Assembly: GCA_002440765.1 (NCBI GenBank)
Contig: DJVC01000132.1
Coordinates: forward strand, 1 to 18,215
Source of the DNA: a bacterium UBP3_UBA6266
Lineage (GTDB): Bacteria > Auribacterota > UBA6266
Length of the DNA stretch: 18,215 nucleotides
Direction of reading: 5' to 3'
Both the position numbers and the translations under genes were made by a program. Shown here piece by piece: positions 1,383-16,468 of this stretch. The stretch's first letter is position 1, and the number at the start of each line of letters is the position of its first letter. Below the pieces are notes generated by a model. It was given only the letters and a program-made list of their open reading frames with translations. It did no database searches and was not told the origin of the DNA.

Positions 1383-3200
1383 TTACAACATATTAACTTT
1401 CAGTTTTTTATCCGAAAAAACTTTAATAATATTCTGTTTTACAACACCCTCTGTATCAAGAAAATAGGCATCCCTGAAATATCTCCCGCTTTTAGATTCC
1501 ATACCCAAATTTTCAGCGGCTAAAGCGGCGTTAAAATAAGCTTCCGGATTATAAGGATTAATAAATATTTCATCTTCAAAAAACTTTAAGGCGGAAGCAT
1601 AATCCCCTGTTCTCAGATAACATATGCCAAGCCCGAAATTGATATTAGCAAAATAAGGCGCTCGCCTCTTTATCTTCAAATAATCATTAATGGCTTCTTT
1701 ATAATTTCCCAAATAAAAATACCCATAAGCCCGATAAAAAAGAGCCATGTTATCTTCCGGAGCAAGCCTGAGAGCTTTCTCATAATAGATTACCGAAGCG
1801 CTATAACGCCCCAATTCATCGCTGGTAACAGCCTTTCTCATGACATAATTATAGCAGGTTTTTGAATAAATGTGTTTTAACGGGCAGAACAGCAAAAACA
1901 ACACTGCCGCATATGAGAATGTTTTTCTCAGCGTATTATTTAAATATAAAACCCTGTCGGTTCTTGCGGTTATACCGGCAAAAAACCAGAAAAACGCGCC
2001 CAAAAACGTGATGTTATACACATTGGAAAAAAGCATCATCATAAAAATACAAAAACAGGCGGAGGAACAGCAGATATAAAAATATTTGAGACGCAGCCCG
2101 GTATAATTTCCGGAAGATAAGTCGGCACAGATAAAAACGCCGAAGATCAATATCGAAAATGAGGCAAAACCCAAAACCCCCGTCTCAGCTAAAACATGCA
2201 GAAACTCATTATGCGCATGGTCCGAAAGTTTCTGCATCTTTGTCTGTTCCACAATACTCTTATCTTTATATTCCGGGAAAAATATAAAAAAGGAACCCGG
2301 ACCCTTGCCGACCAGCGGGTCCGAAATAAACATGCCCAGCGCCCCGGACCAAAGATAATAACGGTTTGAGATATCCGTAATATTATTTAAATAATCCCGC
2401 TCTTTAAACAAATTGCCTGTTCCTTCATCGGTTACAAGATATATAACCCCCAGCAAAACAATAATGCATATTAAAACAGGCAGAAACTTTCTTGTTTTCT
2501 CCCATCCGAAATATGCTGAAAGGAAATACAAAGTGATAAACAGCAGCGCTATCTGGCTGCCCCTGCTCATAGCCATTGAAAACATAAAAACCGACAATAG
2601 AACCAGCGCCAGCATCAAAACCCCGATTAGCAACCTGTTATTCTGTTTTTCTGACTTCGATACATACAGGATGGCGCACAAACTAAAAGGAAAAGAAATA
2701 AGAATATATGAAGCGAAAAAAATCGGATTTCCCGGCAGGGAAGGGATCCTGATAAAAAACCCGGATGTATCGGGGAAAACTTCGGGGATTATAAAAAACA
2801 TCTGGTAAAACCCGTATATAACAGATATTAACAAACCTAAAATAAACGCGGAGAATATAAAAAATTCTGTTTTTTCCATTTTCCTTATATGAACCGCGAA
2901 CCTGAAACACAGATAATACAGCAATACCTTATATAAAAAATCAACGGCAGGATACCTGTATCTCGAAAAAAACATGCTTACAAGAGATACAGAAATAAAA
3001 AGGACAAACAAGAGATCAAGATACCCATAACGCACAAGCCCGTCAATCTTGATTTTAAATAATAAATAGACGCAGAATAAAAAAACTGAAGTCCATAATA
3101 TAATATCTTTAATAAAAGTATGATCCAGAAAACCGTAAAAGATTACGGACGGTGAGATAAAAAAAACGAAAATAAGGAGTATAATAAATCTTCTGCCCAT
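1383..3200 (-). CDS. O-antigen ligase / O-oligosaccharyltransferase-like Wzy_C membrane protein with C-terminal TPRs
   Basis: The 605-aa protein has about eleven hydrophobic segments up to residue 410, one more near 428-440, and then a soluble tail. Wzy_C hallmarks are Ser-Arg-Gly at 212-214 (MSRGSQ), a large loop with DPLVGKGPGSF (294-304), and HAHNEFLHVLAETG (328-341), whose His and Glu match the conserved loop of WaaL/PglL-type enzymes. Residues about 465-583 form three TPR-like repeats. Such enzymes transfer undecaprenyl-linked glycans to lipid A core or to proteins at the outer face of the inner membrane. Because pilin-like genes lie on both sides, transfer to a pilin, as done by PglL/TfpO, is a reasonable inference but not shown. 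The start at 3200 is ATG without a Shine-Dalgarno; TATAAT ends 7 nt before it. A polymerase or lipid A ligase role remains possible. Confidence 0.87.
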   Translation of the reverse strand: MGRRFIILLIFVFFISPSVIFYGFLDHTFIKDIILWTSVFLFCVYLLFKIKIDGLVRYGYLDLLFVLFISVSLVSMFFSRYRYPAVDFLYKVLLYYLCFRFAVHIRKMEKTEFFIFSAFILGLLISVIYGFYQMFFIIPEVFPDTSGFFIRIPSLPGNPIFFASYILISFPFSLCAILYVSKSEKQNNRLLIGVLMLALVLLSVFMFSMAMSRGSQIALLFITLYFLSAYFGWEKTRKFLPVLICIIVLLGVIYLVTDEGTGNLFKERDYLNNITDISNRYYLWSGALGMFISDPLVGKGPGSFFIFFPEYKDKSIVEQTKMQKLSDHAHNEFLHVLAETGVLGFASFSILIFGVFICADLSSGNYTGLRLKYFYICCSSACFCIFMMMLFSNVYNITFLGAFFWFFAGITARTDRVLYLNNTLRKTFSYAAVLFLLFCPLKHIYSKTCYNYVMRKAVTSDELGRYSASVIYYEKALRLAPEDNMALFYRAYGYFYLGNYKEAINDYLKIKRRAPYFANINFGLGICYLRTGDYASALKFFEDEIFINPYNPEAYFNAALAAENLGMESKSGRYFRDAYFLDTEGVVKQNIIKVFSDKKLKVNML

Positions 3201-3299: not shown

Positions 3300-3821
3300 T
3301 TATTTAACAGTATTTCCTCTTGGGCACCATCTTGCATCACTTCCGATATAGACGCAGTTTCCACCGTCATCGGAGTGGTTCTGCACTCTTTCCCAAACAA
3401 CCCCGGAATCAGCAGGGTCAGATTCTTTCTTTCCCCTTCTATATACATAGCTCATCGCATTGGTATCACCACCGCTGACCGTATTAGTTGTATATGTCCT
3501 TGTCAGTCCTGTTGTCGAGTCACTAACCGAATCAGATGTGCTCGGACATACAAAAATACTTAAGCTTGTGGTATAACCGTCATACAACGGAGCCAGACTG
3601 TCGGTTGTAGCGGCAGTTCCGCTGTATACAAACCAGTCATCCCAATCCTGAGCATAGATATGAAGAGCTGTCCCGATCTGCTTGACATTCGAGAGGCAGT
3701 TTATTCTCCTTGCCTGTTCCCTTGCTCTCCCCAATGCAGGCAACAGCATACCGGCAAGAATGGCTATAATTGCGATAACAACGAGGAGTTCAATCAATGT
3801 GAAACCTTTCGCCTTTCTCAT
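3300..3821 (-). CDS. Prepilin-like protein with N-terminal methylation motif (paralogue of 708-1217)
   Basis: The 173-aa product has leader MRKAKG, then [18 protein letters not shown] with cleavage expected after Gly6 and Glu at mature position 5, then a helix with [12 protein letters not shown] and a globular domain. Four cysteines (42, 92, 156, 166) match the paralogue. The C-terminus [12 protein letters not shown] and His149 nine residues before Ile-Gly repeat the variant H-X9-DG motif. It is likely a major or minor subunit of a type IV pilus-like or type II secretion pseudopilus. The start codon ATG at 3821 follows a perfect anti-SD match. Own promoter, strong ribosome site and strong terminator point to an abundant monocistronic product. 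It is close to the paralogue over the first 60 residues and at the C-terminus; the middle differs. Confidence 0.92.
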
Positions 3822-3924: not shown

Positions 3925-4848
3925 TTAATCCTGCTTCTTTTGGCCTCCGAGCAGGCCCAGCTTCTGCATCTGATATCTAAGGGCATGCCTGCTTAATTTC
4001 AGTAATTGCGCGGTCTTGCTTATGCTGCCTCCGGACTTTCTCATAGCCAGTTCAATAAGTTCCTTTTCATAGTTTGAAACCTGCTCCTGATAATCAATCC
4101 CTTTCCCGGAAAAAACCTCTTTTGTATCATTACCCTTTACTTTGAAGGCGGGGACTTTAATCTGGCGCACCACACTGGGAACCGCCACGACATCCCTGTT
4201 CTCCATGGAAACTATTTTTTCAACGAGTTTTTCCAGTTCCAGAACATTTCCGCTCCATTCATGCTGCACAAGCAGGGTTTTAACATCATCATCAAAACCT
4301 TTTATGGCCTTTCCGGTCAAAGCGCTGTATTTATCAAGAAAATATTCAGCCAGCGGAATAATATCTTCCTTTCTTTCTCTTAAAGGCGGAATTTTAATAT
4401 TGATTATATTCACCCTGTAAAAAAGATCCTCCCTGAAAGTGCCTTTTTTAACTTCATGCTGCGCATTTTTTGTTGTTGATGAAATAATTCTCACATCTGT
4501 TATTCCTTCTGTCCCGGATTTTTTATTGTAATATCTGCTGTTTTTAAACACGCGAAGCAGCTGCTCCTGCAGGTTTAAGGGCATATCGCATATTTCATTT
4601 ATATAAAGGGTTCCGCCCCCGGCAACTTTAAAACAGCTGTTTTTCTCTTCCTGATTCTGGGCTTTCCCGCAGCCTGACAATTCTTTTCCGAGCAACTCGG
4701 ATGAAACGCCGGCGCAATTCAGGTAGTAAAAGGGCTTGTCTCTCCTGGCGCTGTGAAAATGCAATGCCCTCGCTATCAATTCCTTGCCTGTCCCTCTCTC
4801 CCCTTCTATCATCACCGGGGAGACCGTCGGAGCAACAGTATAAACCAA
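3925..4848 (-). CDS. AAA+ and Fis-type HTH part of an NtrC-family regulator, separated from its receiver by an in-frame stop
   Basis: The segment continues, in the same frame, the receiver gene at 4858-5331; only a TAA at 4858-4860 parts them. Counted from a TTG at 4848, Walker A is GERGTGKE (16-23), the arginine-finger region FREDLFYR (138-145) and PPLRER (154-159) are present, and a Fis-type HTH closes the protein (about 272-300, SKTAQLLKLSRHALRYQM). Key parts are altered. GAFTGA is replaced by a LSGCGKAQ-like stretch (57-64), Walker B reads TLYINE with Asn for Asp (84), sensor I Asn is Thr (126), and the GNVREL sensor II Arg is Leu (203). A sigma54-activating ATPase is therefore unlikely. 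It could be translated by readthrough, by restart at the weak TTG (no Shine-Dalgarno seen), or not at all. The HTH looks intact. Confidence 0.8.
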   Translation of the reverse strand: MVYTVAPTVSPVMIEGERGTGKELIARALHFHSARRDKPFYYLNCAGVSSELLGKELSGCGKAQNQEEKNSCFKVAGGGTLYINEICDMPLNLQEQLLRVFKNSRYYNKKSGTEGITDVRIISSTTKNAQHEVKKGTFREDLFYRVNIINIKIPPLRERKEDIIPLAEYFLDKYSALTGKAIKGFDDDVKTLLVQHEWSGNVLELEKLVEKIVSMENRDVVAVPSVVRQIKVPAFKVKGNDTKEVFSGKGIDYQEQVSNYEKELIELAMRKSGGSISKTAQLLKLSRHALRYQMQKLGLLGGQKKQD

Positions 4849-4857
4849 TTTACATAT

Positions 4858-4860
4858 TTA
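4858..4860 (-). other. In-frame TAA stop inside an otherwise continuous NtrC-type reading frame
   Basis: Reading frame: ...GKSPQIQ-stop-ICKLVYTVAPTV..., where NtrC relatives have an uninterrupted link into the AAA+ domain. Both sides are in the same frame. Read as one residue, the gene (3925-5331) would give 468 aa, the normal length of the family. A single base change, for example from AAA, would explain it. Confidence 0.9.
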
Positions 4861-5331
4861 CTGTATTTGCGGCGATTTTCCCACCACACCCCTCAATCCC
4901 TCCTCATTAGCCAGTGTCCCCATTAATTTCTTATTTTCAAGCACCAGCCGGTTATGCTCTAATGCCCTTTTAACGGTAAAAAGGAATTCATCAGGGTCAA
5001 AAGGTTTGGCTATATAGTCAAAAGCCCCTTCTTTTATCGCCTTTACGGCCAGCTTAGGGGTAGCATACGCCGTTATCATAATAAACTCTGTATAGGGAAA
5101 ATCTTTTTTTATAGATTCCATAAACTTAAATCCGTCTATTTTTTTCATTTTCGCGTCGGTCACTATAAGATTGAACTTTTCACTATTGCATATGGATACA
5201 GCCTGTTCGGCGCTCAGCGCCGTGACAACGCTGTATCCCTTTCTTCTCAATATGGTACAGAGCGACTCAGCCATGTTTTTTTCATCATCTACAATCAGTA
5301 TTCTTGTTTTTCCGGCCTTATTGATTTCCAT
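4858..5331 (-). CDS. Response regulator receiver domain (N-terminal part of a split NtrC-family regulator)
   Basis: The 157-aa product is a complete CheY-like receiver followed by a linker. Acidic pair in VDDE (residues 14-17), phosphoacceptor Asp in VTDAKM near residue 58, Thr in ITAYA and Lys in AKPF are all present, so phosphorylation should work. The tail GVVGKSPQIQ is the normal linker to an NtrC AAA+ domain, but an ochre stop follows. The start ATG at 5331 lies inside the 3' end of the histidine kinase gene (14-bp overlap), so translation is coupled and the kinase is almost surely its partner. As a truncated protein it could act as a phosphate sink or single-domain regulator; with readthrough it would be a full NtrC-type regulator. 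Confidence 0.93.
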   Translation of the reverse strand: MEINKAGKTRILIVDDEKNMAESLCTILRRKGYSVVTALSAEQAVSICNSEKFNLIVTDAKMKKIDGFKFMESIKKDFPYTEFIMITAYATPKLAVKAIKEGAFDYIAKPFDPDEFLFTVKRALEHNRLVLENKKLMGTLANEEGLRGVVGKSPQIQ

Positions 5332-6610
5332 TTTTTAAAATAGTCCTGATAGGAAGATTAACTTTCACTTCTGTCCCCGCCCCGGAACTTTTGATATTTA
5401 CGGATCCTCCGTATGTATCAACAATAGATTTTACTACAGATAATCCCAACCCTGTCCCTTTTTTCTTTGTCGTGACAAAAGGGTCAAAAACTTTGCCGAT
5501 CAGCCCGGGATCTATGCCTCTTCCGGTATCCTGAACAACAACCAATATATAGCCATCCGAAGAATAAGCTGTCTCTATGACTATTTCCCCTTTTTCTTCC
5601 ATCGCCTGTCTTGCATTTGTCACTATATTGTATATGATTTGCTTCATATGAAGGCTGTCAAAATATATTCTGGGAAGATCCGGACTGTATTTCCTTTCTA
5701 TTTTTATGTTTTTGAAAAACTCCGGACCCATATCATTAACGACCGCATCAATCGATTGATTAACATCTATTTTTTCTACCTTCCCTTCCACCAGCCGCGA
5801 ATAATTCAGAAGATCGGTTATGATACGGTCAGACCGCAATATTTCTTTTCTGACTATATCAAGATGTTTCCTGTTTTCAGGAGAAGTATTGCCGATTGAA
5901 TTTTCCAATATATAAACAGAGTTGATTATTATGCCGAACGGATTCTTCAGTTCATGCGCGATACTGGCGGCAAGTTTTCCCGCAAGAGATATTTTTTCCG
6001 CCCTCAAAGTCATCTCCTGCAGTTCTTCTTTTACTCTGGTTTTCCTCGATAAAAGAGTATATATACCCCAGCAGCAAATACCTACAAGGACCAGAACGGC
6101 AACCTTAAGCCAAAAAACCTGGTTGTGAAGGAAAACAGATGACTGGTCATGAAGATAAATAGCTATTACATAGAACATTATAAAGCTTAAATTCAAGGCT
6201 GACTGGCTCCTGATCTTCGGGAAGTTGACCGCGTTCCTTATCATAAGCCCGCAGTACAGCCAGTAGAATTCACTGTCAAGCCCGTTTGAAAAGTATATAA
6301 GAAAACTCAGAAACAGGTTGTCTATAACGGAAAGGAAAAACGCGGATAATTTTACTATTTTAAAATTTACTTTTCTCTGCCCGAGTTTTATAAGCGTAAA
6401 TATAAAAACCAGATTGCCGAGCAGATACATCCAGAACTGATATCTGTAAAAAACAAATTTGAATTCCGTTTCGCCTTTTACCTGCCAAAGAAAAATCGCC
6501 GAGGCAATCACCACTATCAGTTTGGCGGGAATCATTATGAATTTTTCAAGTATTACAATTCTTTTGAAATGTCTGATTTTCTCATCAGCGGGAATAATTG
6601 AATGGGCCAT
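5318..6610 (-). CDS. Membrane sensor histidine kinase (NtrB/AtoS-like transmitter)
   Basis: The 430-aa protein begins with a cytosolic leader, then about five to six membrane helices (about 22-43, 58-76, 86-106, 138-153, 165-187) with very short loops, so it may sense a membrane or internal signal; no PAS domain or large periplasmic sensor is seen. A linker coil (190-207) leads to the HisKA helix with SIAHELKNP, His219 being the phosphorylation site. The HATPase part has the N box (NIVTNARQA, Asn332), G1 (DTGRGI, 361-366), F box (FDPFVTTKKKGTG) and G2 (GTGLGLSVVK). All catalytic boxes look intact. The gene begins 6 nt after mlaF and overlaps the response regulator by 14 bp. Confidence 0.95.
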   Translation of the reverse strand: MAHSIIPADEKIRHFKRIVILEKFIMIPAKLIVVIASAIFLWQVKGETEFKFVFYRYQFWMYLLGNLVFIFTLIKLGQRKVNFKIVKLSAFFLSVIDNLFLSFLIYFSNGLDSEFYWLYCGLMIRNAVNFPKIRSQSALNLSFIMFYVIAIYLHDQSSVFLHNQVFWLKVAVLVLVGICCWGIYTLLSRKTRVKEELQEMTLRAEKISLAGKLAASIAHELKNPFGIIINSVYILENSIGNTSPENRKHLDIVRKEILRSDRIITDLLNYSRLVEGKVEKIDVNQSIDAVVNDMGPEFFKNIKIERKYSPDLPRIYFDSLHMKQIIYNIVTNARQAMEEKGEIVIETAYSSDGYILVVVQDTGRGIDPGLIGKVFDPFVTTKKKGTGLGLSVVKSIVDTYGGSVNIKSSGAGTEVKVNLPIRTILKNGNQ

Positions 6611-6616
6611 AAAAAA

Positions 6617-7414
6617 TCAGTTTCCTTCAACCAGGCTCTTTATATACTCCTCAGTTGAATCTTTAGCCGAGACGGAAGCGGCTTCAAGGGAGCCGCCAAT
6701 AAATTGCTGGACATAAGGGTTAGCGGAATTTTTTATCTCGTCAGGCGCCCCGCAGGCTATAACGCGGCCCTTAAACAGAACAGCCATTTTATCGGCTATC
6801 CGAAAAGCGCTTTTCATTTCATGTGTTACCACAACGGATGTCATGCCCAGCTTTTTGCTCAAATCCATTATCAAACGGTCTATTACGGCGGCTACTATCG
6901 GGTCAAGCCCGGCGCCGGGTTCATCATAGAATACAATTGACGGATCCAGCGCTATCGCTCTCGCCAGCGCGGCTCTTTTTTTCATGCCGCCGCTTAATTC
7001 CGACGGCATTTTCTTTTCAAAACCCGCCAGGCCGACCTGGGCTAATTTCATTTTAACCATTATATCGATAATCTTCTTATCAAGATGCGTGTGTTCTGTC
7101 AAAGGAAGCGCTACATTCTGCGCCAGAGTAAGGGAATTAAGCAACGCGCCGCCCTGATAAAGCATCCCGAATTTCAGGCGGACTCTATCCATTTCAGAAT
7201 CATTCAAATGGACTATTTCTTCTCCGTCGATAAAAACCTCTCCGCTGCCCGGCTTTAGCTGCCCTATCATAATTTTAAGCAATGTGCTCTTTCCGCAACC
7301 GCTGCCGCCCATTATCACCATAGTTTCGCCTTTTTCCACGGTGAGATTGACACCGTCAAGGACTTTACGGTTATCAAACACTTTTTGAACATCTTTTACT
7401 TCCAGTATCGACAT
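6617..7414 (-). CDS. mlaF: MlaF-type ABC transporter ATPase (phospholipid/lipid transport)
   Basis: The 265-aa protein carries Walker A GGSGCGKS (36-43), Q-loop near Gln87, ABC signature LSGGM (140-144), Walker B VFYDEP (161-166), D-loop GAGLDP and switch His198. The LYQGGALLNSLT and FYDEPGAGLDP segments are typical of the MlaF/Ttg2A/Mkl group, which energises MCE-type lipid transport across the envelope. It follows the MlaE-type permease by 8 nt with Shine-Dalgarno GGTGAG before the ATG, so the two are translated as a pair. The substrate-binding MCE protein (MlaD) normally encoded next is absent; the histidine kinase comes instead. Confidence 0.92.
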   Translation of the reverse strand: MSILEVKDVQKVFDNRKVLDGVNLTVEKGETMVIMGGSGCGKSTLLKIMIGQLKPGSGEVFIDGEEIVHLNDSEMDRVRLKFGMLYQGGALLNSLTLAQNVALPLTEHTHLDKKIIDIMVKMKLAQVGLAGFEKKMPSELSGGMKKRAALARAIALDPSIVFYDEPGAGLDPIVAAVIDRLIMDLSKKLGMTSVVVTHEMKSAFRIADKMAVLFKGRVIACGAPDEIKNSANPYVQQFIGGSLEAASVSAKDSTEEYIKSLVEGN

Positions 7415-7422
7415 AATCTCAC

Positions 7423-8214
7423 CTAAATAAAATAGAACCAGGCATTGAATAAACAGTCAATAATTATTATAAAAATTATAGACTGGACAACGGACTGCGT
7501 AGTTGAAATACCTACGCCGGCCGCTCCCCCCCTGACGGTCAATCCCTGATAACAACCTATCAGAGCAATCATCACGGCAAAAGCAACGCTTTTTAAAAGA
7601 CCCGTCCATATATCTTTAAAAACCATATAATCAAAAGTAAGTTTTATATAGAAGGAAGAATCAATATGAAGATTAAACCTTCCGATAACATATCCGCCTG
7701 CCATGCCTACGACATTAGCAACTACGGTTAAACACGGAAGCATTATCAAGAGAGCAATCAAACGCGGGGCAACGAGAAACCTGATCGGCTTAAGAGCCAT
7801 TGTTTCCAGAGCATCTATTTCCTCGGAAACCGTCATAGTGCCGATTTCGGCTGTGATTGCGGCTCCAACACGCGAAGCAACGACAATGGCCGCAAGGAAA
7901 GGTCCCAATTCTCTTGTAAATGATACTCCCACAAGGCCGGCCATCAACTCCTGACTGCCCACCTGTTTCAGCTGATAAGATGTAAGCATTGCCAGCGTAA
8001 TACCGAAAAAGAAATTTACCAGCGCAACTATGGGAACGGAACCTATTCCTATAAGATTCATCTGATCCGCAACATATTTCATTTTACACGGCTGGCCTTT
8101 AAAAGGGGCAATGAATATCCAATATAAGACTTCCCTGAAAATTTTCCAGACACTGCCCGTGTGCTTGGTAAAATTAATCGCGGACCGTCCGATCTTACCT
8201 GCAAATTCTCTCAT
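7423..8214 (-). CDS. mlaE: MlaE-type lipid ABC transporter permease
   Basis: The protein of 263 aa has an amphipathic N-terminal helix and about five membrane helices. Its hallmark stretch TRELGPFLAAIVVASRVGAA, followed by a conserved E-I-G-T-M loop and EIDALETM, defines the MlaE/YrbE family, inner membrane partner of MlaF. I place the start at ATG 8214: AAGGAG (8222-8227) lies 7 nt upstream, whereas the TTG one codon earlier would have only 4 nt. The Shine-Dalgarno overlaps the stop of the STAS gene, indicating coupled translation with it. In E. coli the STAS protein MlaB binds MlaF, so the STAS neighbour might belong to this transporter. Confidence 0.93.
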   Translation of the reverse strand: MREFAGKIGRSAINFTKHTGSVWKIFREVLYWIFIAPFKGQPCKMKYVADQMNLIGIGSVPIVALVNFFFGITLAMLTSYQLKQVGSQELMAGLVGVSFTRELGPFLAAIVVASRVGAAITAEIGTMTVSEEIDALETMALKPIRFLVAPRLIALLIMLPCLTVVANVVGMAGGYVIGRFNLHIDSSFYIKLTFDYMVFKDIWTGLLKSVAFAVMIALIGCYQGLTVRGGAAGVGISTTQSVVQSIIFIIIIDCLFNAWFYFI

Positions 8215-8221
8215 CAATCTG

Positions 8222-8227
8222 CTCCTT
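8222..8227 (-). promoter_or_regulatory. Ribosome binding site that sets the mlaE start
   Basis: AAGGAG spaced 7 nt before ATG 8214 and only 4 nt before TTG 8217 favours the ATG. It overlaps the TAA of the preceding STAS gene. Confidence 0.7.
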
Positions 8228-8564
8228 AGGAAGAGAATGACCTTACTGCTTCATCCCTTGTTTCATAAATAGCGAATATGGAATCCAGTTTGGCTATTTC
8301 AAAGATCCCTCTTGTCGTATCGTTCATACCGCACAACTTAAGGAATCCGCCATACCTGTGCATTTTTTGGAAGACTTCTATTAACGTCGCAAGCCCCGCG
8401 CTGCTTATATATTTTACATCCGCAAGGTCAACAACAAGCTTTTTATTTTCCTCTTTAAGAACACCCGCAAAAAAATCTCTGGCTTTAGGAGAAGTATGTG
8501 AATCCATATCACCTTTGAGCAGTACAAGTTCGATATCGCCTTCGGACTTTCTTTCAAATTCCAT
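8226..8564 (-). CDS. STAS-domain anti-sigma factor antagonist (RsbV/SpoIIAA-like; possibly MlaB-like)
   Basis: The 112-aa product is a single STAS domain: beta strand IELVLLKGDMD, then KLVVDLADVKYISSAGLATL, where Ser54/Ser55 sit at the phosphoacceptor position of RsbV/SpoIIAA proteins. In partner switching, the unphosphorylated antagonist captures the RsbW-type kinase and frees its sigma factor or other target; the PP2C phosphatase resets it. The kinase gene ends 31 nt upstream and the phosphatase precedes that, supporting this role. The mlaE start follows by 11 nt, so an alternative or added role as the MlaB subunit of the lipid transporter is open. Shine-Dalgarno GTGAGG precedes the ATG. 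Confidence 0.92.
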   Translation of the reverse strand: MEFERKSEGDIELVLLKGDMDSHTSPKARDFFAGVLKEENKKLVVDLADVKYISSAGLATLIEVFQKMHRYGGFLKLCGMNDTTRGIFEIAKLDSIFAIYETRDEAVRSFSS

Positions 8565-8595
8565 AGCAACCTCACAATGTTATAAAAACTATTTA

Positions 8596-9048
8596 TTAAT
8601 TTTTCTTTGCTTTACTGCCGCCGTTTTTTACATGCTTGACCATTATCAACTCGGTTCCGTCAGCATCATCACGGATAACATATTGTACACTATCCATTAT
8701 TTTTTTCATAAAGTAAATTCCGAGTCCGCCCGGTCTTATTTCGTCCAGCTCTCTACCCTTCATCTTTTCGGGATGGACTTTCCGCCCGTAATCCTTTAGA
8801 ACCACCTCTATCCCGTTATTGAGCAATGACAGCTTAATAAAAATATCTTTTGTGCTGTCTCCGTTATAGGCGTGTTTAATGATATTAGCACAGGCTTCGT
8901 CTACCGCAAGAACAATATCCGCGATATCATGTGAGGCAAAACCCGCGAGAGAAGATATCTCTTCCACCATCGTCCTCACGAGACGCAGATATTTATCGTC
9001 GCTCTTTATTTGCAGGAGAACCTGATTTTGTCCGATATTGACTTCCAT
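8596..9048 (-). CDS. RsbW/SpoIIAB-type serine kinase (anti-sigma factor HATPase)
   Basis: The 150-aa protein is a stand-alone GHKL ATPase. N box DEACANIIKHAY (50-61, Glu51 and Asn55), G1-like DYGRKV (86-91) and the G2 segment RPGGLGIYFMKKIMD (105-119) are visible. It ends with a short basic tail. Such kinases phosphorylate a STAS antagonist on Ser and bind a sigma factor or another effector. No sigma factor gene lies in this window, so its target may be encoded elsewhere. The gene sits between the phosphatase (24 nt upstream) and the STAS protein. No Shine-Dalgarno is seen before ATG 9048; a perfect 18-bp palindrome occupies that gap. Confidence 0.92.
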   Translation of the reverse strand: MEVNIGQNQVLLQIKSDDKYLRLVRTMVEEISSLAGFASHDIADIVLAVDEACANIIKHAYNGDSTKDIFIKLSLLNNGIEVVLKDYGRKVHPEKMKGRELDEIRPGGLGIYFMKKIMDSVQYVIRDDADGTELIMVKHVKNGGSKAKKN

Positions 9049-9050
9049 AG

Positions 9051-9068
9051 TTAATATAGCTATATTAA
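9051..9068. repeat. Perfect 18-bp palindrome in front of the kinase gene
   Basis: TTAATATAGCTATATTAA is its own reverse complement. It lies in the 24-nt gap between the phosphatase stop codon (9073) and the kinase ATG (9048), where the ribosome site should be. It could be a protein-binding site or an mRNA hairpin limiting kinase translation. Low complexity makes chance possible. Confidence 0.55.
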
Positions 9069-9072
9069 ATCT

Positions 9073-10362
9073 CTATTTAATTGTTGCCGCAATCAAAGTT
9101 AAATCATCGTGCTGCGGAACATCCCTGGAAAATGTTTTAACCTCATCAAGTATATATTGAATTATCTCGCCGGCGTCAAGTTTTTTATGTTTAATGAGAA
9201 CCTTCAGCTTTTCCTCTCCGAACTCATCTCCCTTTGCGTTTCTCGCTTCCGTTATCCCATCGGTATAACCTATGATTGTCTCTCCCGCATTGATTTTTGC
9301 AACGGACTGCTCATATTTGACTCCCGGCATTATTCCCGCCGGCAGCCCGGTCCGGCATAATAGTTCCCTGATTTCACCATCCGCTCCGCGAATGACAAAA
9401 GGGTGATGCCCCGCATTGGCGAAAGTAATTACTTTTTCCTTATAATCCAATATTCCTATCAAAAGAGTTATAAACATCCCAAGCATGCTCTGTTCGACAA
9501 GGGCATTATTTATTTCTTCCATAAGTTTCCCGACACCTTTAAAAAGCGAAGCGTGGAACCTTATTTCGCTCATTGCCCTAACCATAAAAAGAGCGGCGGG
9601 GACTCCTTTGCCGGAAACATCGCCTATAACCAGCCCAACTTTACCGCCGCCAAAATCCAGAAAATCGTAAAAGTCCCCTCCCAGTTCAAGAGCGGGAATA
9701 TTCCTTGCACTTAAAATAAGGTCTTCATATGAGGGAAATTCCGAAGGAAGAAAATTCTGCTGTATCTGATGGCCTATTTCAAGTTCATGTTCAACCCTCT
9801 GCCTTTCAAGAAGCCTCTTATGCATTCTGGCGTTTTCAACCGCTATCGCAACCATGCTTGAGAATGATTCGAGCAACTCCCTGTCTTCATCATCGAATCC
9901 TTCTTTCTCTATGGGATTTAATACCTGCAAAACCCCTATGGTTTTATCTTTGGCAGTTAAAGGGACACACAGTATAGCCCTGGTTTTAAATCCGGAATGC
10001 TCATCGGCGCCTTTAAAGTGTCTTGAATCATTTTCAACGTCATTAATTATAAGAGGCTTCTGTTCCTTGGCAACCCATCCTCCGATACCCTGCCCTTTCC
10101 GAAGCCTTATTTCCTTGATTTTTTCACCGGCATCTCCGTGCGCTATTTTAAAGACCAGTTCATCTGTCTTTTCATCGAGCAGCATCAATGCGCTTGCTTC
10201 GACATTCATTATGTTTTCCGCAACTTTCATGGCGCGGTCAAGAAGTTCATTGATATCAAGCGTTGAGTTAATTATGCCGCCGACAGTGATAAGCTTTTTC
10301 AGGTCGGATACCTTGCGCCGGAGTTTCTTTAATGAAGCGGATTCTTTGTCCTTGTCTTTCAA
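9073..10362 (-). CDS. GAF-domain PP2C-family serine phosphatase (RsbU/SpoIIE-type)
   Basis: The 429-aa protein has a charged coiled-coil start (1-25), a GAF domain (about 37-178), a linker helix, and a SpoIIE/RsbU-type PP2C domain (about 210-428). Metal-binding Asp residues lie in GGDFYD (230), IGDVSGKG (248), GYTDGITEA (368) and HDDLTLIA (419-420), so the enzyme looks active. Its role would be to dephosphorylate the STAS protein in response to a ligand sensed by GAF; GAF domains often bind cyclic nucleotides, and an adenylate cyclase is encoded directly upstream, but binding here is inference. The start is TTG at 10362, overlapping the cyclase stop (TTGA), without a clear Shine-Dalgarno, so it depends on coupling. 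Confidence 0.94.
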   Translation of the reverse strand: MKDKDKESASLKKLRRKVSDLKKLITVGGIINSTLDINELLDRAMKVAENIMNVEASALMLLDEKTDELVFKIAHGDAGEKIKEIRLRKGQGIGGWVAKEQKPLIINDVENDSRHFKGADEHSGFKTRAILCVPLTAKDKTIGVLQVLNPIEKEGFDDEDRELLESFSSMVAIAVENARMHKRLLERQRVEHELEIGHQIQQNFLPSEFPSYEDLILSARNIPALELGGDFYDFLDFGGGKVGLVIGDVSGKGVPAALFMVRAMSEIRFHASLFKGVGKLMEEINNALVEQSMLGMFITLLIGILDYKEKVITFANAGHHPFVIRGADGEIRELLCRTGLPAGIMPGVKYEQSVAKINAGETIIGYTDGITEARNAKGDEFGEEKLKVLIKHKKLDAGEIIQYILDEVKTFSRDVPQHDDLTLIAATIK

Positions 10363-12296
10363 CCTTTTATACCCTTTACACAGAAAATCTTTACCTTTTT
10401 GTCTTTTCCTTTAACCGCAACTTCATCTAAAAAGTCTACTTCAAATTCACCCTTAATACAATCATAAGTTGTCTCTGTGATAATTATGCCAAAAGGGTAT
10501 TTGCGCGTTAATCCCTCAACTCTGGATGCCAGGTTAACATTATCCCCTATAACGGTGTAATCATATATCTGGCTTGAGCCCATATTCCCTACCATCATGG
10601 GCCCCGTATTTATTCCGATACCCATATCAATGGTTTCCAGTCCTTTCTCGGAAAAATCGGTGTGCAGAAGTTTCAGCTCTTTCATCATATCCAATGCCGT
10701 CAGGATCGCAAGCCTGGCATGGTCTTTCTGCTCCACGGGAGCATTCCAAAAGGCCATAATCGCATCACCTATGTATTTGTCTACAGTCCCGTTACGGGAA
10801 ATTATCACCCTTGTCATGCGGTCAAGATACTCATTAAGCACCGGGACGACCTCATCCGGAGATCGTTTTTCACAGTAAGAGGTAAAGCCTCTTATGTCGG
10901 AAAAAAGGACCGTCATGTTTTTTCTTTCTCCGTGAAGCTTCAGTTTCGAGGGGTCCTTCAGAAGCATATCCATAATATTTTTTGATATATACCTTCCAAG
11001 AACCTTTTTTATATATCTTTTATCTTTTGTTTCAATCACATGTTTATAGACAACGGACCCGCCGAAACATATGCTCATTGCGGTATAAGGGATAACTGTA
11101 TTAACATAAATATTAAAATCGCTGAACAGGTAAAAAGAAAGCGCGACAAAAAAACATGCGCTCAGGACACTGAGAGGAACGTATATCCAGAACCGGTACG
11201 GGATATTGACAGCTCCGATTACAACAGCAAGCAGGAATGTTATCAAAACACCGTACAAAAACGGAGTCTTTACTATAAAATCCCGCTCTAAGACGGTATT
11301 CAAAGCATTGGCATGGACCAGAAGAAGAGGAACCTTATTTGAAGAAATGGGTATAAGACCCAAATCATCGCCGCCTGTTATGCCGGCGCCGTATATAATG
11401 ATTTTTTTAGAGTAATCCCCGGGGTAAACAACCGGCGGTATATTTTCGCTTAACTGGCTGTCCGCCTTAATGATCTGAATAGCCGGGTCACCTTTAAAAT
11501 CTTTCGTGGAACCCCTGAAATTAACCGGCATACAATATTTGTCATCCGTCGGAATCCTGACAGAAGTGCCCTTTATGGAAATAATATTGCCGGTAAGTTC
11601 AATGTCTTTGGAATTCCTGTTAAAATGTCTCAAGAGAATGGCAAGTATAAATGAAGGATATACTTTTCCCGAATAACTTATAAGCATGGGCAGCCTTCTT
11701 ACAATACCGTCCGAATCTTCGGGCGCGTTTACAAATCCCAAAAAGCCCGAACCGGCAATTTCAGTCACGGGAAGCTGCACGGCATCAGATTTAATTATAC
11801 CCCGAAGGGTTTCCTGCACGGCGTCAACAGCAAAGCCGCCGGTTAACAAATCATCTCCTTCCTCCACATAATCTCTGTAGAGAGAGATATCCATGTCCTT
11901 TTCAATCTTAAAATAATACGGCCAGACAACCCTGTTGTTTAAAAGTTTGGTAAAATAGATAATATTATCAAGACCGTATTTCTTTTTCTCATAGTATTCG
12001 AATCTTATATCAAAACCGACCGCCGACGGGTTTGTCCTGGACAGAAACTGGAGAACCTGGGCATGGTTGGTCCACGGCCACGGCCACTTGCTGTCCCCCA
12101 TCCGGATAGACTGGTCGTCTACAACTATCAGCCTTATCTTATCCGATATTCTTATACCCGCATTAACCCTCATTTTATAATCGTATATCCTGTTTTCCAG
12201 ACCTTTAATGGGTTCAAGCATACAGAAAAAATAAGCAAAAATACATGAAACAAGGGGAATAAAAAAACATAGGACAAGATATTTTTTTACGTTCAT
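10359..12296 (-). CDS. CHASE2-domain membrane class III adenylate cyclase
   Basis: The 645-aa protein has an N-terminal membrane helix (about 7-26), an extracytoplasmic CHASE2 sensor (about 30-335, with WPWPWTNHAQVL and GFDIRF), three membrane helices (about 345-362, 370-390, 397-415) and a C-terminal cyclase domain (about 455-642). Metal Asp467 (FSDIRGF) and Asp511 (GDAIMAFW), adenine-specifying Lys507 (TVDKYIGD) and Asp585 (TVIGDNVNLASR), and Asn588/Arg592 are all present, so ATP to cAMP is expected. It is the first gene of the long minus-strand operon and probably senses an envelope signal. TATAAT lies at 12326-12331, about 30 nt upstream of the ATG; no Shine-Dalgarno is evident. Confidence 0.94.
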   Translation of the reverse strand: MNVKKYLVLCFFIPLVSCIFAYFFCMLEPIKGLENRIYDYKMRVNAGIRISDKIRLIVVDDQSIRMGDSKWPWPWTNHAQVLQFLSRTNPSAVGFDIRFEYYEKKKYGLDNIIYFTKLLNNRVVWPYYFKIEKDMDISLYRDYVEEGDDLLTGGFAVDAVQETLRGIIKSDAVQLPVTEIAGSGFLGFVNAPEDSDGIVRRLPMLISYSGKVYPSFILAILLRHFNRNSKDIELTGNIISIKGTSVRIPTDDKYCMPVNFRGSTKDFKGDPAIQIIKADSQLSENIPPVVYPGDYSKKIIIYGAGITGGDDLGLIPISSNKVPLLLVHANALNTVLERDFIVKTPFLYGVLITFLLAVVIGAVNIPYRFWIYVPLSVLSACFFVALSFYLFSDFNIYVNTVIPYTAMSICFGGSVVYKHVIETKDKRYIKKVLGRYISKNIMDMLLKDPSKLKLHGERKNMTVLFSDIRGFTSYCEKRSPDEVVPVLNEYLDRMTRVIISRNGTVDKYIGDAIMAFWNAPVEQKDHARLAILTALDMMKELKLLHTDFSEKGLETIDMGIGINTGPMMVGNMGSSQIYDYTVIGDNVNLASRVEGLTRKYPFGIIITETTYDCIKGEFEVDFLDEVAVKGKDKKVKIFCVKGIKG

Positions 12297-14507: not shown

Positions 14508-15398
14508 TTATTCCTGCTTAATAAGAGATCCCCTGTCGAAATTGCCTCCGCTGATAGTGTTAGCTTTTGAAAATTTATCTTCTACGGCAAAAACCTGGAC
14601 TTTACCCGTTTTCTGTGTTTCGCTTCCCAGTGTAATTCCCGTGTCAGGATCAATTAATTCTTCTCCAACGGAAAATACGGAAAATTCATCGCCCACCATT
14701 ACTCCTGATTCCAGCCCGCAGTTCAAATACACGACATTATCCTTGACAGTAACTACTTTGCCCTGCCAGGGAACATTTCTCAGTTCGGCGCAGATCCAGG
14801 CTATAGCTTGATCGATTGCGGCCTGGGTAGCTTTGCCCAGGGGGGCTTTTTGAAAGTTTGATGTGCCGATTCCCCAGTCGGAGCGGCCGTAACCGATACT
14901 CATTCCGGAAGATTTCGCTTTTGCCTCACATCTCTTGGATGCAATCACCTGTCCCGTAGTTACGTCATACAACCTGATGTTAACGGCAACATGCGCATAT
15001 GAGCCTGAACCACCCAGAGAAAAACCTTTAACATTAAATCCCACGCCTCCGCCGGATGTCCTTTCGGCGAATTCAGTAACGGCTCCGCTGACAAGTATCT
15101 GGGCATTCAACAACCTTCCGGTCTGGGGAGCTCCGGCGGAAGTTGTCCGGCCGCTTTGCGCAAAATCCTGCTCCTCAAGAACACCTCTTATATTCTGGCG
15201 TTCAACAACAATGAACTTATCTGAATTAGTTAAAGAAGTGGTGAGCATTTCGGCCATCCCGTGCCCTAAATTCCACTCAGCGTTAAAGCCTGCTTTATTT
15301 TCAAAATCTGAAACCGCTATGGTCTTTTTGATTTCAGCATGAGACAATCCATATAAAAAAACAAAACAAATACAGAAAAACACCGACATCCTTTTCAT
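14508..15398 (-). CDS. CsgG-family envelope protein with FlgT_C-like tail (copy A)
   Basis: The 296-aa protein has a signal peptide (about 1-21, ending LSHA) without a lipobox, unlike E. coli CsgG. Residues about 22-205 are a CsgG domain: TIAVSDFENKAG, a helix with GHGMAEMLTTSL, FIVVERQNI, the ILVSGAVTEF strand, and the RLYDVTTGQVIASKR segment. A FlgT_C-like beta domain follows (about 214-294, VVYLNCGLESGVMVGDEF). CsgG proteins form outer membrane secretion pores (curli, HfaB holdfast) or FlgO-like flagellar envelope parts; which applies is unknown. The start overlaps the stop of the upstream paralogue (ATGA), with GGAGGG upstream. It is the last gene of the operon. Confidence 0.88.
   Translation of the reverse strand: MKRMSVFFCICFVFLYGLSHAEIKKTIAVSDFENKAGFNAEWNLGHGMAEMLTTSLTNSDKFIVVERQNIRGVLEEQDFAQSGRTTSAGAPQTGRLLNAQILVSGAVTEFAERTSGGGVGFNVKGFSLGGSGSYAHVAVNIRLYDVTTGQVIASKRCEAKAKSSGMSIGYGRSDWGIGTSNFQKAPLGKATQAAIDQAIAWICAELRNVPWQGKVVTVKDNVVYLNCGLESGVMVGDEFSVFSVGEELIDPDTGITLGSETQKTGKVQVFAVEDKFSKANTISGGNFDRGSLIKQE
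15079..15107. repeat. 29-bp exact repeat shared with the neighbouring CsgG paralogue
   Basis: Identical to 16032-16060. Both encode the same CsgG strand (NAQILVSGAVT), though the surrounding sequences have drifted apart. It fits a tandem gene duplication with local constraint or gene conversion. Confidence 0.9.
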
Positions 15399-16468
15399 AA
15401 TTTCTTTTTCCCTCCAATAATTGAACTGTCCTGCTCTGTTTCGACAGGCTGTACAGGAACCTCTATATATTTAATTATATCTCCTCTTGAGAAATTTCCT
15501 CCGGATACGGTTTCCGCAAGCGAAAATTTATCTTGAACTTCAACAACTCTGACCCTGCCCGATCTTTCTTTCTCAAAACCGAGAGATATTCCCGAATCAG
15601 GATCTACCAATTCATCCCCTTTGCGGAAAATTTCGAATTCATCTCCGATCTTTACGTTTGAATCGATACCGCAATTCAGATAAACTTTGTCTTTCTTTAC
15701 GGTAACAATACTTCCTCTCCACTGGACTTTCTGCATCTCCATGCATATAAAATATACTGCTTCATTTATTGCTTCCTGAGTGACTTTCCCCAGAGGGGAA
15801 GCTTTGAAATTATCAAAGTCCACGGCCCAGTCACTTTCTGAATATCCCACGCTCAGTCCGGAAACATTACCTTTGCCTTCAACCCTCTGCGAAGCGATAA
15901 CCTGACCTGTTGTAGTATCATACATCCTCAGATTAATAGCAACATAGGCAGTTGCTCCTCTGAGCCCGAGGGAAAAACCTTTATACTCAAACATACTGCC
16001 CGAATCATATATGCGCTGGGAAAATTCGGTGACGGCTCCGCTGACAAGTATCTGGGCATTTAAAAGCTTTCCTATTTTAGGGGCCCCGGCATTAACGGTT
16101 CTTCCGCTTAATGAAAAATCCTGCTCTTCGAGAATCTGGCCTATATTCCGGCGTTCAACAATGATAAACCTGTCTGTTTCCAAAAGAGCGGTCGTAAGCA
16201 TTTCCGCCATGCCGTCGCCCAAATTCCACTGGGCATTGGCACCTGCTTTGTTTTCAAAATCCGCGACTGCTACGGTTTTTTTAGGACCTGTAACCGGCGG
16301 GAGGTGGAATTCCCGAACTTTTTCCTGTTTTTTCTTTACGGGTTTTTCTCTCACGGACCTGTTTTCCTGTATCCGCCTGCGGGCAGCAAAAACAAAGTCA
16401 CCCGACAAAAAGAAAGAAACCGTTAAAAATATTATTAAGGGAAAAACCGCCTTTCTAAAAATGACCAT
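15395..16468 (-). CDS. CsgG-family envelope protein with FlgT_C-like tail (copy B)
   Basis: The 357-aa protein is a clear paralogue of copy A, with the same order: signal peptide (about 1-28), CsgG domain (about 62-245, TVAVADFENKAG to EAINEAVYFICMEM), FlgT_C-like tail (about 253-333, VYLNCGIDSNVKIGDEF). It differs by a basic, Lys/Arg-rich linker after the signal peptide (30-55) and a 25-residue extension at the C-terminus (VPVQPVETEQ onward, ending KKKL). The linker could bind peptidoglycan or nucleic acid-like polymers, but that is a guess. ATG 16468 lies 2 nt after the FlgT-like gene stop and the gene overlaps copy A by 4 bp, so the three are translated in series. Two copies may form a mixed ring. 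Confidence 0.88.
   Translation of the reverse strand: MVIFRKAVFPLIIFLTVSFFLSGDFVFAARRRIQENRSVREKPVKKKQEKVREFHLPPVTGPKKTVAVADFENKAGANAQWNLGDGMAEMLTTALLETDRFIIVERRNIGQILEEQDFSLSGRTVNAGAPKIGKLLNAQILVSGAVTEFSQRIYDSGSMFEYKGFSLGLRGATAYVAINLRMYDTTTGQVIASQRVEGKGNVSGLSVGYSESDWAVDFDNFKASPLGKVTQEAINEAVYFICMEMQKVQWRGSIVTVKKDKVYLNCGIDSNVKIGDEFEIFRKGDELVDPDSGISLGFEKERSGRVRVVEVQDKFSLAETVSGGNFSRGDIIKYIEVPVQPVETEQDSSIIGGKKKL
16032..16060. repeat. 29-bp exact repeat shared with the neighbouring CsgG paralogue
   Basis: Second copy of the segment at 15079-15107, in the same reading frame and same place of the CsgG domain. Confidence 0.9.

Follow-up and report, generated by a model that had tools for sequence, protein, structure and literature searches.

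The closest described relatives of the locus reported here are the lipid ABC transporter MlaFEDB of Escherichia coli and the RsbU-RsbV-RsbW/SigB partner switch of Bacillus subtilis. In the former, Thr52 and Gln22 of the STAS subunit MlaB contact Lys128 and Thr114 of MlaF, and MlaF residues Tyr261 and Met127, the former from the tail of the second subunit, pack together on MlaB (PMC7784689); the tail, residues 247-269, has been termed unique among structurally characterised ABC proteins (PMC7367683). Phosphorylation of MlaB at the MlaF-contacting residue was hypothesised in 2016 (PMC5016091) and raised again in 2020 (PMC7367683). The 2020 paper describes Thr52 phosphorylation as so far without evidence and calls the control of MlaB an open question, and neither paper names a kinase for MlaB in its passages on phosphorylation. 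Here we describe a unit of five genes, PP2C-RsbW-STAS-MlaE-MlaF, in which the parts of both systems stand together. It lies on the minus strand of the window, that is, the whole of the 18,215-nucleotide contig DJVC01000132.1 (C29) of a Candidatus Auribacterota draft genome (1.84 Mb, 140 contigs, 89.7% complete). With a probability of roughly 0.7, the STAS protein would be the MlaB subunit of MlaEF, its phosphorylation by RsbW at Ser55 switching transport off and its dephosphorylation switching transport on. We infer the binding, the phosphorylation and the sign of this switch.

The module resembles MlaFEDB in having MlaE, a tailed MlaF and a STAS protein whose residue at the MlaF contact is Ser or Thr (PMC7367683, PMC5016091, PMC7784689). 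It differs in that the STAS protein is RsbV-like, with a longer C-terminal part than E. coli MlaB has, and in that the STAS gene is upstream of MlaE and accompanied by a kinase and a phosphatase. With the SigB switch it shares a PP2C phosphatase, an RsbW kinase, a STAS substrate and matching contacts between them (PMC7340262), but it has MlaE and MlaF where the sigma factor would stand. Fusions of STAS to MlaE have already been noted (PMC5016091). In our set such kinase-free fusions (L065-L073, L212, L213, L215, L216) also tie STAS to MlaE and belong to the same group of the MlaE tree, but they are without adjacent RsbW, have lost the kinase-facing Tyr52 in 11 of 12 cases, and their MlaF has no tail.

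An earlier note on this DNA, made from the letters alone, had read the five genes as one operon, and Pfam matches in all five frames (6617-10362) agree with it. The phosphatase (429 amino acids, TTG start, 9073-10362) matched SpoIIE/PP2C with 152.1 bits and GAF with 81 bits. The RsbW-type serine kinase (150 amino acids, 8596-9048) matched HATPase_c_2 with 96.9 bits and the RsbW model PRK04069 with 89.9 bits, below the cut-off of 145. Next comes the RsbV-type STAS protein (112 amino acids, 8226-8564, Pfam STAS 67.5 bits), with the predicted phospho-site Ser55 at codon 8400-8402, so that the phosphatase, kinase and STAS antagonist of an Rsb-type partner switch are all present together. The MlaE-type lipid ABC permease (263 amino acids, 7423-8214) scored 257.6 bits with PF02405 (cut-off 22.5) and 230 bits with TIGR00056 (cut-off 212.2). 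The MlaF-type ATPase (265 amino acids, 6617-7414) matched ABC_tran with 110.1 bits; its best solved-structure relatives are MlaF chains, and its best NCBIfam model is MlaF, at 239.6 bits and under the equivalog cut-off of 441. Its C-terminal tail (6620-6697), ending TEEYIKSLVEGN, matches the MlaB-contacting tail of E. coli MlaF (Tyr261, Leu265, Leu266). The gaps between genes are 8-31 nucleotides long: 24 between PP2C and RsbW, 31 between RsbW and STAS, 11 between STAS and MlaE, and 8 between MlaE and MlaF. Coupled translation from STAS to MlaE, as the earlier note had supposed, is plausible given the 11-nucleotide gap and a GGAG, the likely MlaE ribosome-binding site (8222-8225), immediately past the STAS stop (8226-8228); the two genes themselves do not overlap, the MlaE ATG being at 8214.

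The order RsbW-STAS-MlaE-MlaF was found in at least 35 loci, of which 14 belong to the window's clade and 21, from 16 families, are outside the phylum, and the co-occurrence of these genes extends across many families. This recurrence argues that the order is more than chance. Outside the phylum, RsbW matches were intersected with the listed MlaE matches in a 384-genome sample and 39 loci were read; as only the top of the MlaE list and coincident RsbW matches were followed, the count is a lower bound. Two further loci there have STAS-MlaE-MlaF, L208, in which the kinase is not visible, and L211, whose contig begins just before STAS. STAS is therefore directly upstream of MlaE in 37 loci, and RsbW precedes it in all except these two. 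Loci L074-L085 are the 12 of the GTDB contig collection whose MlaE is nearest to the window's family. Eleven have PP2C-RsbW-STAS-MlaE-MlaF, and in the remaining one, L076, the contig begins at MlaE; the MlaE of L074 is 94% identical to that of the window. Nine of the 12 (L074-L076, L079, L081-L085) are the same contigs as loci from our genome set and were counted once. The next 68 MlaE loci, from Verrucomicrobia, have neither STAS nor RsbW, with less than 1.5 kb upstream of MlaE in 7 of the 68. MlaE of the window's kind is present in 12 of the 44 genomes of the phylum, and a STAS profile at 1e-25 matched 15 of the 44, beside that MlaE in 11 and elsewhere in four (L245-L248). Of the 30 best RsbW matches, 21 adjoin STAS-MlaE. 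A same-strand PP2C is found within 5 kb in 14/14 window-clade loci with RsbW and in 15/21 loci outside the phylum. In nine loci (L210, L227, L233-L235, L237, L240-L242) PP2C and RsbW form one frame, a possible bifunctional phosphatase-kinase, and STAS, MlaE and MlaF follow. MlaD is downstream in 33 of 38 linked loci, and the window's family has a two-component pair in its place.

Residues on the kinase-facing side are strongly conserved. STAS Ser55 and Tyr52 are present in 37/37 linked proteins and Asp21 in 35/37, and, in RsbW, catalytic Glu51 and also Asn55 in 35/35. The matching B. subtilis sites are RsbV Ser56, Tyr53 and Asp23 and RsbW Glu49 (PMC7340262), and the contact residues between kinase and substrate of an Rsb-type switch are thus found in both the STAS and the RsbW alignments. 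Among kinase-free STAS-MlaE fusions Tyr52 is kept in only 1 of 12. A structure model of the STAS protein has a SpoIIAA-type fold, with SpoIIAA as its best alignment; MlaB chains were not among the 50 fold-comparison rows shown, which is uninformative either way.

To compare the MlaF-facing side, 153 loci were considered, of which two have no MlaE and 11 have no nearby MlaF or an MlaF frame open at its end, leaving 140 that were counted. In the window MlaF the residues equivalent to E. coli Met127 and Lys128 are Met122 and Lys123, and the Met127 site had been fixed from PMC7784689 before the rows were inspected. At this site M, I, L or V is present in 38/38 STAS-linked MlaFs, compared with at most 4/91 STAS-less ones. 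The plain STAS-less units have an aliphatic residue in 2 of the 26 rows visible among 27, which include the genome's own paralog (the tally shows the eight commonest letters), and Glu in 14; in verrucomicrobial MlaFs it is aliphatic in 1/64 and Glu in 53, and beside STAS-fused MlaE it is aliphatic in 8/16 and Trp in 3. Lys128, present in 38/38 linked MlaFs, is common to linked and verrucomicrobial rows, and Thr114 gives no separation (29/38 linked, 63/64 verrucomicrobial). The MlaB-contacting tail was found in 36/38 linked MlaFs and 0/102 unlinked ones with a pattern that was anchored past the core, allowed Val in last place and was set after the tails had been seen. Two earlier patterns gave 34/37 versus 5/103 and 35/38 versus 5/102, the unlinked matches lying mostly within the ATPase core. 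One unlinked match of the first pattern, L056, belongs to the window's family and has a contig that begins at MlaE; it was afterwards counted as linked. The rows are not independent, because 63 of the 102 unlinked ones are closely related Verrucomicrobia. Within the genome itself the window MlaF has Thr, Met and Lys at sites 114, 127 and 128 and carries the tail, whereas the second, STAS-less MlaF has Met, Glu and Lys and no tail. The STAS protein beside MlaE and MlaF has, as in MlaB, a Ser/Thr at the MlaF contact.

These results support the core of the earlier note, that one STAS protein may serve both the kinase and MlaF, through gene order in many families and conservation of both interfaces. 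A STAS interface fitting only the kinase, which would have spoken against that proposal, is contradicted indirectly by the retention of the MlaB contact site in those MlaFs that are accompanied by STAS. An MlaE tree of 94 rows placed all 37 STAS-linked ones in a single group of 65 (support 99/89), which also contains the 15 fused rows, 11 rows sampled from the 68 verrucomicrobial loci and one other pair without STAS. Within it the verrucomicrobial MlaEs grouped with the window's clade in a set of 26 rows (support 99/97). The tree was midpoint-rooted, some of its branches are long, and the linked label needs 5 changes on it. The verrucomicrobial relatives are jointly without STAS, kinase, MlaF tail and hydrophobic contact residue. 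Read with an outside root, the tree suggests an early presence of STAS and its later loss from Verrucomicrobia, along with the tail and the hydrophobic site. Because the three would have been lost together, the tie between STAS and MlaF appears to be more than shared descent.

The other Mla and STAS genes of the genome bear on whether a separate MlaB could serve the window MlaEF. A second MlaE is at the end of contig C72, preceded by a gene that we take to be AsmA-like, and the second MlaF is with MlaD at the start of C123; we infer that these are a single MlaEFD unit split by the assembly. Nine STAS matches were found in the genome, the window's included, and none of the other eight adjoins MlaE, MlaF or MlaD as far as the contigs extend. 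Against the curated MlaB model NF033618 the window STAS scored 25.8 bits, under the cut-off of 90, and this was the highest score among the eight STAS proteins scored, the other seven falling below it. A separate MlaB, which the earlier note had named as a reason to abandon its proposal, was accordingly rejected, no STAS being found beside the second MlaE or the second MlaF-MlaD in the visible parts of their contigs. Of the two MlaD genes of the genome, one is that on C123 and the other stands alone on C106. The C106 MlaD was the best-matching query for the module-adjacent MlaD in 7 of the 8 phylum loci that have one, and it probably supplies MlaD to the window MlaEF in trans. The window module is not the sole Rsb-type system of the genome, because a separate partner switch is present on contig C136 (L018, 3777-8462): STAS, PP2C, STAS and RsbW, followed by genes that by eye are GrpE- and DnaJ-like.

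In the mechanism that we favour, PP2C would be activated by a signal, perhaps cyclic AMP that the neighbouring CHASE2 cyclase makes and the GAF domain detects. Unphosphorylated STAS would bind the helical subdomain of one MlaF and the tail of the other, as the conserved contact sites suggest, and its docking would assemble or activate the transporter complex, as MlaB does in E. coli. RsbW would phosphorylate Ser55, by homology at the MlaF contact, releasing STAS from MlaF, and PP2C would reverse the phosphorylation. The surface around and including Ser55 would be turned towards either partner, and STAS should therefore be unable to bind RsbW and MlaF at the same time. The likely sign, phosphorylated being off, follows from the E. 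coli phosphomimetic MlaB Thr52Glu, which showed reduced MlaF binding (PMC7367683).

The CHASE2-adenylate/guanylate cyclase (645 amino acids, 10359-12296, minus strand; Pfam CHASE2 133 bits, Guanylate_cyc 106 bits) is a candidate extracytoplasmic sensor, and its stop overlaps the PP2C frame by 4 nucleotides provided that the TTG of PP2C is the start. Its position suggests that an envelope or extracytoplasmic cue may reach the GAF domain as cyclic AMP. A CHASE2 cyclase also adjoins the module in L054, L055, L078 and L080. Set against this, CHASE2-cyclase, PP2C and RsbW stand in a row without adjacent STAS or MlaEF in L244 and L249 (family f7, same phylum).

The same gene order could arise from co-expression only, PP2C-RsbW-STAS controlling a sigma factor or other regulator elsewhere and MlaEF being an envelope output that shares the operon. 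In its favour, sigma factors are the usual targets of Rsb modules (PMC7340262), four Sigma70_r2 matches are present in the genome, all on contigs other than the window's, and the f7 loci carry cyclase-PP2C-RsbW with no MlaEF next to it. We nevertheless consider this unlikely: STAS directly precedes MlaE in 37 loci, the MlaF contact site and tail are kept alongside STAS but not in relatives without it, no sigma factor is encoded on the window contig, and the Sigma70_r2 matches listed for 29 genomes come no closer to a module than about 29 kb, although a sigma factor could still be reached in trans. Information might also flow in reverse, the transporter being the sensor, with MlaF holding or freeing STAS according to lipid load and the RsbW switch informing another target. 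Such a scheme would need the same two interfaces, and a histidine kinase and an NtrC-type regulator are downstream in the window's family. It appears quite improbable, since no other RsbW target is visible in the conserved neighbourhood and the E. coli STAS subunit is required for transporter assembly and ATPase activity (PMC5016091), which points to control of the transporter. Very improbable, in our estimation, is that STAS is a plain MlaB-like subunit and the adjacent kinase has a different STAS protein as its substrate. The genome has eight other STAS matches, and L208 has a STAS-transporter unit without visible kinase; however, RsbW precedes STAS in all other loci apart from the contig edge at L211, and the kinase-facing Tyr52 is universal in linked STAS proteins and nearly absent from kinase-free fusions.

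Several observations weigh against a phospho-switch on MlaEF. E. coli MlaB Thr52Ala still binds MlaF yet is inactive (PMC5016091; PMC7367683), so the residue may serve activity without any phosphorylation. Eleven of 12 fused STAS domains that have no kinase retain Ser at the Ser55 site, several of them aligned weakly (three further fused rows, L071, L072 and L219, gave no aligned Ser site), and conservation of Ser55 was for this reason rejected as proof of phosphorylation. The counterpart of RsbV Arg84/Arg87 is not consistently basic, Lys or Arg occurring at site 85 in 28/37. On the MlaF side the tail is atypical in L231 and L240, and the GLAT-E motif of linked STAS proteins is also found away from MlaE (L245), for which reason it was discarded as a sole mark of MlaF binding. 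As to gene content, RsbW is not visible in L208, and no same-strand PP2C was seen within 5 kb in 6 of the 21 loci from outside the phylum. For nine of the 30 best RsbW matches the flanks, of up to 1.5 kb, contain no MlaE; seven of these matches are within the phylum and adjoin PP2C, so this kinase type also works without MlaEF. Finally, MlaD is absent beside the window MlaEF, and the full E. coli pathway was not found, MlaC and MlaA each being detected in 0/9 genomes by searches that detected the E. coli control.

Taking the loci together, it seems probable that the module represents a widespread, undescribed class of partner switch with an ABC transporter as output, in which a kinase-phosphatase pair sets the phosphorylation of the transporter's STAS protein and so meters envelope lipid traffic post-translationally, with no transcriptional step. 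Partner switches with other non-sigma targets are known, such as SiaABCD of Pseudomonas; to our knowledge the target of neither this system nor SypA-SypE is an ABC transporter. SypA-SypE of Vibrio fischeri is, like the proposed module, a STAS protein and serine kinase whose target is not a sigma factor (PMC10120452). The earlier note knew of no described system of the present kind, and in the open-licence PMC literature (subscription papers and preprints excluded) we likewise found no paper that joins RsbW with MlaE, none that combines MlaB, STAS and partner switching, and no title or abstract describing a PP2C-RsbW-STAS-MlaE-MlaF module. The text of a STAS review (PMC8256260) mentions neither Mla nor ABC transport. 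As far as these searches go, both halves are of known kinds and their joining is new. If the proposal is true, RsbW supplies the kinase missing from the MlaB phosphorylation hypothesis since 2016; partner switching, best known for sigma factors, extends to direct action on a membrane transporter; and the envelope lipid traffic of many uncultured bacteria is under fast, reversible control. Because a STAS protein beside MlaEF has its own likely kinase and phosphatase, the question of MlaB phosphorylation becomes testable with five genes.

The gene run extends past the five genes of the earlier note, with the cyclase upstream and two genes downstream, so that the full order on the minus strand is CHASE2-cyclase, GAF-PP2C, RsbW, STAS, MlaE, MlaF, histidine kinase and NtrC-type regulator. 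The membrane sensor histidine kinase (5318-6610; HisKA and HATPase_c), which follows MlaF after a gap of 6 nucleotides, is also found in L054, L055 and L056 of the window's family. It overlaps by 14 nucleotides the NtrC-type response regulator (3925-5331), which an in-frame stop at 4858-4860 divides into separate receiver and sigma-54-activator frames; in L054 the regulator is intact as a single 470-amino-acid frame.

Some minor observations were made in related loci and elsewhere in the window. In L243 (G048:C23, 5189-6041) the module MlaE is in two overlapping frames, because either the gene is broken or the assembly is at fault. Locus L245 (G003:C89, 2631-7282), from a relative of the window, carries a further RsbW-STAS pair with a PP2C gene nearby. 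The MlaEs of L207 and L209 (family f160), which belong to the same broad group, each follow a gene that by eye is outer-membrane-efflux-like and have no MlaF, STAS or MlaD beside them. On the minus strand of the window two similar small proteins with N-termini that by eye are type IV pilin-like (708-1217 and 3300-3821) flank the gene for a 605-amino-acid membrane protein at 1383-3200. Two adjacent, similar envelope-type proteins, presumably CsgG-like, are encoded at 14508-15398 and 15395-16468 on the same strand and are likely to have arisen by tandem duplication.

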